Assembly: GCA_026705465.1 (NCBI GenBank)
Contig: JAPPAP010000037.1
Coordinates: 124,001-188,000 of the forward strand
Length of the DNA stretch: 64,000 nt
Source: a bacterium
GTDB taxonomy: Bacteria; Actinomycetota; Acidimicrobiia; Acidimicrobiales; Bin134
Direction of reading: 5' to 3'
The position numbers were made by a program, and so were the translations under genes. Of this stretch, positions 33,302 to 38,369 are shown one piece after another. Numbering within the stretch: position 1 is the first letter of the stretch; every line of letters starts with the position of its first letter. Under the pieces are notes generated by a model that saw only the letters and a program-made list of their open reading frames with translations, was not told the origin of the DNA and did not search any database.

Positions 33302-33622
33302 ATGAGCGAAGAGCGGGTATTCGGCGATGTGGCTACCAAGCTGCTGATGGAGAACGACCGGGTGCGGATCTGGGAGATGCGCTTGGACCCCGGCGAGCGG
33401 TCTGATCTCCACCGGCACGATCATGACTACGTGCTGGTCCAGGTGTCAGGTGACAAGATCGCAGGGGATTTCGAGCCCGACACCGCCGGGGAGTTCTCCG
33501 GCCTCGTGGAGGGCGACGTGATCCCCGGCCAATCCATGTTCATCTCCAAGGGCGGCATCGAAACCGCAGTCAACACTGGCACCGAGTCCTATTACGAGAT
33601 CCTGATCGAGTTGAAAGACTGA
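33302..33622 (+). CDS. Small cupin-domain protein
   Basis: A 106-residue single-domain cupin. Metal-binding cupin motif 1 is RLDPGERSDLHRHDHDYVLVQ (His-rich, three His) and motif 2 lies in the GDVIPGQSMFISKGGIETAV region, where the usual late His is not obvious. The fold binds a metal ion and often senses or converts small acids; function unknown. Leaderless start at 33302 with TACGAT 6 bases upstream. It runs directly into the MFS gene, whose proposed start overlaps this stop. Confidence 0.8.
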   Translation: MSEERVFGDVATKLLMENDRVRIWEMRLDPGERSDLHRHDHDYVLVQVSGDKIAGDFEPDTAGEFSGLVEGDVIPGQSMFISKGGIETAVNTGTESYYEILIELKD

Positions 33623-35007: not shown

Positions 35008-35556
35008 TCAGTTCTGGCCCGTTAGCGCGGCCAAGACCTTGGGTGCCATGATCTCGGCTAGTTCCAGGCACTCCTCTTTCGACCAGATGGCGATGGGTAC
35101 CCAGGGGTAGTTGACGGTAAGGAATTCATAGTCGGCACAACCGCTCACACGGGCTATGGCCTGCGCCGATCCTCTCATCTCTTCATGGACGATGGCGATG
35201 CTGGGAACACCCGCCCACTCCAACTCCACTGCGTCCCGCAAACTGCGGGCACTACAGCTGCCTCAACCGCCGAAGCCGGTTATGGCGACGGTTGCCTCCT
35301 CGGTCAGTCGGCTCCAATCCCCTGGATCTGGCGGGATCGATACCGAGCTCTTGACCACCTTGAGTGGGGCTTGCAGGTCGCTTAACTTGGCCAACTCGTC
35401 GTAGAGGGCATCGAGGAAGATCTCGCCCTCGCCGAGTCCATTGGCCACCAAGCCGACCACCGCCCCGTCCAAGCTGGCTGGCCGAGGGGCGAAATCGTGA
35501 TCGTCAGTGCGGTCGAACGGACCCGATGTGGGGTCGAGGCCGATGAGAGTTGTCAT
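35008..35556 (-). CDS. UGSC-motif selenoprotein (in-frame TGA read as selenocysteine)
   Basis: A 182-residue protein when the TGA at 35265-35263 is read through as selenocysteine (U98). The two halves, 35556-35266 and 35262-35008, are in the same frame. The junction reads GFGG-U-GSCSARSLRDAVELE, the signature of the UGSC (seleno)protein family, with U98 and Cys101 forming a U-x-x-C redox-type motif. The N-terminal half (GLVANGLGEGEIFLDALYDE) and C-terminal half (GVPSIAIVHEEM, NYPWVPIAIW) both fit that family. A SECIS-like hairpin follows the TGA at the expected distance. ATG at 35556 has a TAATCT box 6 bases upstream. Sec machinery genes are not in this window. Confidence 0.85.
35231..35265 (-). 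ncRNA. Bacterial SECIS-like hairpin with the selenocysteine UGA
   Basis: In the mRNA, UGA (35265-35263) is followed by 10 bases, then a stem GUGCCCGC (35252-35245), the loop AGUUU (35244-35240) and GCGGG-A-CGC (35239-35231). That is eight pairs with one bulged A and one G-U. The loop starts 18 nucleotides after UGA and has G in its second position, both as expected for SelB-binding bacterial SECIS elements. Confidence 0.7.
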
Positions 35557-35595: not shown

Positions 35596-36579
35596 CTAGA
35601 CGATGGGTTCGGTGATGGCAAGGGCGAGATGGGGCAGCAGGAGCCAGCTAGCCCCCATCCCCGCTCCCCCGGCGGCGACGATCAGAATGCCTTCAGGCTT
35701 GCCGATGCGGGCCATCCGGTCGGCGGCGCTCGTGGCCGGCGCGTTGAGCCGGGGCCATAAATGCTGCTGGATGTCGCTCTTCGACCAGCCTTCCTCGATG
35801 AAAAACCGGTGGTGCTCGTGGCCGATCACGATGACCACGTTGCCGTCCTCACCCAGCCACGAGTCCCCAGCAATGCCGTTGGCCCGGATATTGGACACCA
35901 GCGTGTCGCACACCCCTTCAGCGGTTCGACTGGTGAAGTCGGTGGCTTCGACCATCTTCATCAAGGAGTGGACGGTCACCGCGCTCTGTTCAGGAGCCAA
36001 CCCTCGCTGGACGTGGAGCGGTTCCCAGTCGGAGGCCTCCTCGTTTTCACCGAAGCAGAAGGAGTAGCGGGCCGGGGTGGAGTAGCTGGCCCGGTCCAAA
36101 AAGCCGGGGATGCCTCGACAGACGTTGCGAATCACGAGGCGCAGCGCCCGGCCAATGGTGGCGTTGGGCCGAAATCCAGGTCCGAAGCAACCCGCCCCTG
36201 AGGCCACGCCAAGTTCGTTGCGAATAGGGCCGTTGATGATCACCACCTGGGCCGCACCCGACAGTGTGCCGGTGGTGGAGTGGCAATTGCCCTTGGGACT
36301 TAAGTGGGCACGGACCGCGGCCACCACCGCGGGGAAGTACTCGGGGAGGCAGCCGGCCATCACCGCGTTCGCGGCTGCCTGTTCCGCGGTGCACGTCACC
36401 TCGCGGGTCGGCACAGTACCGAGCACCTCGTCACCGGAGAGGCCGGCGCGCTCCAGAAAGGCGGTCACCTTTTCCGGAGTCGGGGGCATGATGGGCAGCC
36501 CATCGGTCCAGCCCTTTTCGAAATAGTCCTCCACCAGAGCTTCGTAGGAGTCGTAGGCATGCTGGGTGGCCGTCGTCAT
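35596..36579 (-). CDS. Conserved protein of unknown function, partner of the UGSC selenoprotein
   Basis: A 327-residue soluble protein with conserved-looking segments GWTDGLPIMPPT, NAVMAGCLPEYFPAVVAAVRA, VIINGPIRNEL, FGPGFRPNATIGRALRL, FCFGENEEASDWEPLHVQRG and VIVIGHEHH. It has several Cys but no CxxC and no known catalytic motif. I recall, but cannot check here, that proteins with these segments commonly neighbour UGSC proteins. ATG at 36579 has a TAGTGT box 6 bases upstream that begins in the stop codon of the Lrp gene. Gene order implies a shared pathway with the selenoprotein 40 bp downstream; the reaction is unknown. Confidence 0.7.
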   Translation of the reverse strand: MTTATQHAYDSYEALVEDYFEKGWTDGLPIMPPTPEKVTAFLERAGLSGDEVLGTVPTREVTCTAEQAAANAVMAGCLPEYFPAVVAAVRAHLSPKGNCHSTTGTLSGAAQVVIINGPIRNELGVASGAGCFGPGFRPNATIGRALRLVIRNVCRGIPGFLDRASYSTPARYSFCFGENEEASDWEPLHVQRGLAPEQSAVTVHSLMKMVEATDFTSRTAEGVCDTLVSNIRANGIAGDSWLGEDGNVVIVIGHEHHRFFIEEGWSKSDIQQHLWPRLNAPATSAADRMARIGKPEGILIVAAGGAGMGASWLLLPHLALAITEPIV

Positions 36580-36585
36580 ACTTAG

Positions 36586-36591
36586 ACACTA
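36586..36591 (-). promoter_or_regulatory. Candidate -10 box (TAGTGT) for the UGSC partner gene
   Basis: TAGTGT on the minus strand ends 6 bases before ATG 36579. Its first three bases are the TAG stop of the upstream Lrp gene, so a promoter is packed into a stop codon. A leaderless mRNA is implied. Confidence 0.45.
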
Positions 36592-37050
36592 AAGCTCGTG
36601 ACGGGTGGTCTCCCAGACAGAACGGATGGCGAAACTGGATCGGAGACGGCCCACCCCGCTGAAGCGGGACAGGTATTGGTTATGGATCCGCTCAAAGTCG
36701 CGCTGGTCAGCCACCGCGAGATGGAGCAGATAGTCGGCGTCGCCAGCCATCAAGTGGCAAGACATGACTTCGGGACACTCCACCACCTCCTTCTCGAACT
36801 GGCGCAGATTCGTTTCGCTCTGACTCACCAAGGAGATTTCGACGAACACATCAAGAGAGCGGTTGATGGCCTCGGGATCGACAATCATCACGTAGCCGGA
36901 TATCACGCCGTCCGCTTCAAGGCGACGGACCCGTCGGTAGCACGCGGAAGGCGACAGGCCTACCCGCTCAGCGAGCTCGGCATTGGAGATGCGGGCGTCG
37001 CTCTGGAGTTGGTTGAGGATAGATCGATCGATTGAATCCAAATCCGACAT
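36589..37050 (-). CDS. Lrp/AsnC-family transcriptional regulator
   Basis: A 153-residue regulator with an N-terminal AsnC-type helix-turn-helix (LDSIDRSILNQLQSDARISN and AELAERVGLSPSACYRRVRR) and a C-terminal RAM ligand-binding domain (SCHLMAGDADYLLHLAVADQ). ATG at 37050 has GAGGAG upstream. It is divergent from alanine dehydrogenase across a 185-bp AT-rich spacer, the standard arrangement of AldR-type regulators. It most likely activates or represses ald in response to alanine or another amino acid; that is inferred from context. Confidence 0.88.
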   Translation of the reverse strand: MSDLDSIDRSILNQLQSDARISNAELAERVGLSPSACYRRVRRLEADGVISGYVMIVDPEAINRSLDVFVEISLVSQSETNLRQFEKEVVECPEVMSCHLMAGDADYLLHLAVADQRDFERIHNQYLSRFSGVGRLRSSFAIRSVWETTRHEL

Positions 37051-37199: not shown

Positions 37200-37235
37200 G
37201 TCACTGTAACCATCGGATTGCGGCGGAGGCATTCA

Positions 37236-38369
<1,134 letters not shown>

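Follow-up and report, generated by a model that had tools for sequence, protein, structure and literature searches.

The 64-kb stretch of DNA analysed here (hereafter, the window) is part of contig C21 of a draft Acidimicrobiia genome of 3.11 Mb and 95.7% completeness, whose nearest named relatives are Acidimicrobiia MAGs, the marine group Sva0996 among them. On the minus strand of the window, two open reading frames in the same frame (listed at 35263–35556 and 35008–35241) are parted solely by a TGA codon at 35265–35263; and the reading of that codon as selenocysteine (Sec), as put forward in a preliminary description of this DNA, yields one continuous protein of 182 residues (35008–35556; ATG start, TGA stop at 35010–35008) that contains the segment GFGG-U-GSC-SARSLRDA. 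In that product the Sec would be residue 98 and would form a UxxC motif with Cys101. A candidate bacterial SECIS hairpin follows at 35231–35252 on the same strand, with a stem of 35249–35244 paired to 35240–35235, a loop at 35243–35241, and a lower stem with a bulged A. Directly upstream of the gene, at a distance of 39 bp, lies a gene for a protein of 327 amino acids (35596–36579, minus strand), hereafter the partner, which is preceded by a gene for an Lrp/AsnC-family regulator (36589–37050, minus strand) that probably heads the operon; an alanine dehydrogenase gene (37218–38369, plus strand) is divergently oriented. Elsewhere in the window, an ORF of 106 amino acids (33302–33622, plus strand), located between a methyltransferase gene and an MFS-transporter gene, reads like a small cupin and had no Pfam match at 1e-5.

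The 182-residue product matched the UGSC family PF24696 over residues 7–179, across the TGA, with 136.1 bits (E-value 1.7e-39; profile positions 3–171 of 172), the Pfam gathering cut-off for that family being 25 bits, which match agrees with the family assignment of the preliminary description. The family motif, U/C-G-S/A/G-C, corresponds to residues 98–101, and the columns 98, 99, and 101 were invariant among 49 relatives when U was written as C. The score against the NCBIfam equivalog NF041046 was 89 bits, under the curated cut-off of 125, so that by its sequence the protein is best regarded as a divergent member of the wider UGSC family.

A split reading frame taken alone is poor evidence of Sec decoding, since this GC-rich window has 38 instances in which a single TGA parts two open stretches, each 80 codons or longer. 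That number of chance pairs, along with the TTG available at 35241 as a downstream start, favors the plainest alternative—namely, that the TGA is a real stop, the product a protein of 97 residues, and the downstream ORF either a separate gene or a remnant. When other long TGA-joined pairs were tested as selenoproteins, however, a Pfam domain crossed the TGA in none of 10, and the present gene stands apart from such pairs because PF24696 does cross its TGA. Moreover, the TGA was retained in all 17 congeneric orthologues, the window gene counted, 16 of which were aligned while the 17th was L114; and roughly 100 UGSC copies in 18 genomes of the genus carried exactly one TGA each, the single genome of the genus without it being N-masked at the site. 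In the 16-sequence alignment the pN/pS was 0.082 for the part preceding the TGA and 0.095 for the part following it, in keeping with the equal coding character formerly ascribed to the two sides, and the similarity of these purifying values argues that both halves are translated and equally constrained. Neither TAA nor TAG replaced the TGA in the orthologues examined, whereas Cys codons do occupy the site in relatives—TGC in L237, L253, L205, and L211, and TGT in L256 and L257—which are the Cys-bearing homologues with which a comparison had been suggested.

The hairpin weighs in the same direction. It can be drawn as CCCGCA/UGCGGG with a GUU loop, or as CCCGC-AGUUU-GCGGG, in either event beginning its loop 18–19 nt after the UGA, with a 6-bp stem in the former drawing and a fold energy of −16.0 kcal/mol (z −2.1). 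The published limits for bacterial SECIS elements are a loop of 3–9 nt, a stem of 4–16 bp, a spacing of 16–37 nt, a G within the first two loop positions, and a minimum free energy at or below −7.5 (PMC13188914), and the element proposed in the preliminary description lies within every one of them; a scan of the 64-kb window with Rfam returned no matches. Synonymous change was absent from the hairpin codons 103–108 (pS 0.000 versus a mean of 0.38 in the 16-sequence alignment), and the three lowest of 175 seven-codon synonymous windows fell within the hairpin. In 62 of 76 UGSC genes, representing several phyla, the best hairpin had a loop that began 18 or 19 nt after the UGA; the register was the best of all those tested, with 94.9% paired versus a median of 40%; and in 68 distinct sequences 88% of the pair cells were standard, versus at most 49% when the register was slid. 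Two-sided changes were found at seven of the eight hairpin pairs in those 68 sequences, the pair 20–26 alternating between C-G (42) and G-C (26). Because amino-acid changes among the paralogues add to such pair changes, we regard the freezing of silent sites within the orthologues as the cleaner evidence. The hairpin is conserved across phyla, and its presence with frozen silent sites right after the TGA, together with the domain match and the constraint on both sides, makes a real stop at this position very improbable.

A misread TGC codon for Cys, which the existence of Cys homologues elsewhere might suggest and which had been named in advance as an outcome that would count against the Sec reading, is ruled out for practical purposes because the TGA is conserved in all the congeneric orthologues; it is present in the independent assemblies of 16 congeners and in 74 UGSC genes from several phyla. 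A genome-wide reassignment of UGA—for example, to Trp or Gly—would be compatible with any frame open across a TGA, but deserves no further weight because ordinary TGA stops occur, the UGSC gene itself terminating at TGA within a window that otherwise follows translation table 11, and because the genome carries the Sec machinery and the signature of the family is Sec or Cys.

With regard to that machinery, the search recommended earlier for selA, selB, and selD was successful for all three (405.6, 271.2, and 356.1 bits, respectively, each above its curated cut-off), selA and selB being located side by side at 16–19 kb on contig C3 and selD on contig C19. The selD gene carries an in-frame TGA near the N-terminus (HGAG-U-AGKLGP; L018:1531–1533, contig C19), at the usual active-site position of SelD, and thus constitutes a second selenoprotein gene in the host genome. 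The expectation of a selC gene was borne out in part: contig C3 opens with the 3′-terminal 53 bases of a tRNA-Sec gene, while the anticodon half would lie beyond the contig end; and since the contig starts inside the tRNA gene, the missing half is probably attributable to an assembly break rather than to absence. On alignment with five congener genes, the 53-nt piece matched four without a difference; a complete tRNA-Sec was found in 17 of 21 congeners, at about 67 bits, and the anticodon was UCA in all six congener genes checked. In the host genome, ARAGORN detected no UCA anticodon, and the matches to RF01852 were rejected as tRNA-Ser, -Leu, -Trp, and similar tRNAs. The remark that Sec is uncommon in the phylum is consistent with the recovery of above-cut-off UGSC genes in only 27 of 396 sampled actinobacterial genomes.

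From all these results we conclude, with a probability of about 95%, that the gene is a member of the UGSC family whose internal TGA is decoded as Sec. By analogy with established Sec biology, and with strong support from the sequence, SelB would bring Sec-tRNA(UCA) to the UGA owing to the hairpin, and the ribosome would insert Sec98 and continue to the 182-residue protein. The UGSC family was listed among the abundant aquatic selenoproteins, with Cys homologues, in the GOS survey (Zhang and Gladyshev, 2008; PMC2398784), and the family of that survey, of PF24696, and of NF041046 shares with the window gene the UxxC (UGSC) motif, the length, the TGA-encoded Sec, and the SECIS. UGSC-motif selenoproteins are likewise known from actinobacteria in the UAG-decoding Sec systems of the Geodermatophilaceae (PMC5330540); here, in contrast, the codon is UGA and the congener tRNA-Sec anticodon is UCA.

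Three observations go beyond those of the preliminary description: five further paralogues, the partner gene, and a relationship to GrdB/PrdB. The host genome contains six UGSC paralogues with one TGA each, and every one of the six adjoins the partner ORF or a homologue of it, the homologues being 30–36% identical. The 327-residue ORF matched no Pfam or NCBIfam family. UGSC has a cultured carrier in Reyranella aquatilis KCTC 52223 (L181). A profile search for the partner in the genome collection retrieved at least 566 relatives; for the best 80 of these, drawn from many phyla, a UGSC gene was present within 3 kb in 73, and in those loci it shared the strand of the partner in all but one and had TGA 74 times versus TGC twice. 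The seven loci without UGSC comprise three that stop at contig ends and four with complete flanks and no UGSC gene within 3 kb—L185 and L189 from Poribacteria, and L192 and L155 from Chloroflexi—behind which a partner-only variant is possible. In the reverse direction, which is the stricter test, we took the 29 UGSC loci from the phylum sample and sought the partner within 1.5 kb: the partner was found at all 27 actinobacterial loci above the Pfam cut-off, four Cys forms included, the two loci without it being those below the cut-off. In each of the 16 congeneric loci inspected, the Lrp gene adjoined the orthologous partner–UGSC pair, and the alanine dehydrogenase gene was kept in the congeners wherever the fetched stretch reached, except at one locus with a short flank; the latter gene may share the Lrp regulator with the partner–UGSC pair.

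In the literature that we searched, whose coverage was incomplete, no account of the UGSC–partner linkage was found. The GOS survey does report a fusion of UGSC with a domain designated "Unknown_1" (PMC2398784), which may be the same partner; the survey describes a fusion only, whereas a single Acidimicrobiia genome here has six paralogues, all of them beside an uncatalogued partner gene.

The predicted structure of the UGSC protein (mean pLDDT 87.8) is a parallel flavodoxin/Rossmann-like α/β sandwich in which Sec98 stands at the start of a helix (99–114) after a strand (90–96). Foldseek and VIA-align matched this model to generic flavodoxin/Rossmann structures, with the best natural chains at Z about 9, and these PDB matches gave no functional lead; sequence searches of the PDB with both the UGSC and the partner families produced no real match. 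The partner model, at a confidence of 90.4, had no Foldseek match at an E of 0.001 or better, with a best Z of 6.2 over about 90 residues. The invariant residues of the partner—D, G, P, E, N, R, and W—suggest an active site.

A remote likeness was found between UGSC and the Sec-containing subunits GrdB/PrdB (PF07355) of the glycine/sarcosine/betaine and D-proline reductases. In both families the Sec comes directly after a hydrophobic strand, in GrdB/PrdB it is followed by GTGTRCGSTLAKELERAGIPT, and the common pattern is U-G-[ST]-x-[TS] with a helix and GIP behind it; and hhalign placed Sec on Sec with an E of 2.5e-5 over about 63 columns (75–86% probability), whereas the best of 60 column-shuffled profiles gave 0.078 and a reversed one 0.42. 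Unlike those reductases, the window protein had no PF07355 match—the Pfam scan returning UGSC alone—so that the likeness is confined to the profile level and to the Sec region. The partner, for its part, is not like the pyruvoyl-forming GrdE-type subunit of those enzymes: a relationship to GrdE was rejected by profile comparison (probability 0.2%, E 0.35), as was one to GrdB, and no PF09338 protein was found in the host genome.

As separate observations on PF07355, the model (GRDB) ends just before the Sec codon (L215–L223) and misses in its matches both the active site UGTGTRC and the C-terminal stretch of some 90 residues. A single-domain relative of its C-terminal part lies outside the window at C21:32970–33389 (43.5 bits), and similar short actinobacterial genes, L225 and L226, run through an in-frame TGA just past the end of the model; the gene on C21 may accordingly, from its sequence, be another unannotated selenoprotein.

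The invariant columns 98, 99, and 101, the relation to GrdB/PrdB, and the linkage to the partner lead us to propose, albeit as a model whose correctness we put at somewhat below even odds, that UGSC and the partner would form a two-subunit, Sec-dependent oxidoreductase. The selenolate, at the N-terminal end of the helix that follows the central strand, as in the Sec region of GrdB/PrdB, would attack the substrate; Cys101 would resolve the intermediate as a selenenylsulfide; and the partner would supply substrate binding or activation. Since the partner is unlike GrdE and GrdB and has no clear fold match in the PDB, the proposed enzymatic role is without support from direct homology. Alternatively, Sec might be inserted into a free-standing thiol/selenol redox protein of the thioredoxin type, the partner being merely co-transcribed, which possibility is favored by the UxxC motif and by the thioredoxin-like fold conjectured in the GOS survey (PMC2398784). 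That fold proposal of 2008 is unsupported by our results, because the protein model is flavodoxin/Rossmann-like and drew generic, flavodoxin-like matches from the PDB; the partner linkage, furthermore, holds across phyla and in the Cys forms, and the partner invariants suggest an active site, so that we consider the free-standing protein unlikely, though far less so than a true stop at the TGA. As to the substrate of the proposed two-subunit enzyme, the Lrp regulator and the divergent alanine dehydrogenase hint weakly at a role of the window copy in amino-acid metabolism; the substrates of the five remaining copies may differ.

The UGSC family has been in the lists of selenoproteins since 2008 and is uncharacterised. 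We tentatively suggest that UGSC and its partner of about 330 residues could constitute an undescribed and widespread class of reductases, dependent on Sec or sometimes on Cys, that would combine a Sec site distantly related to that of GrdB/PrdB with an unrelated substrate-activating subunit, possibly of a new fold, and would have diversified within one Acidimicrobiia lineage to give six or more copies, each with a substrate of its own. Ordinary gene calling that halts at TGA would split all six UGSC copies in such genomes. The present results establish Sec decoding, at the probability given above, in actinobacteria of a marine and sponge-associated lineage that has received little study, and the near-obligate partner together with the link to GrdB/PrdB provides a testable idea of function for the family—that is, which two proteins to purify jointly and what chemistry to seek.
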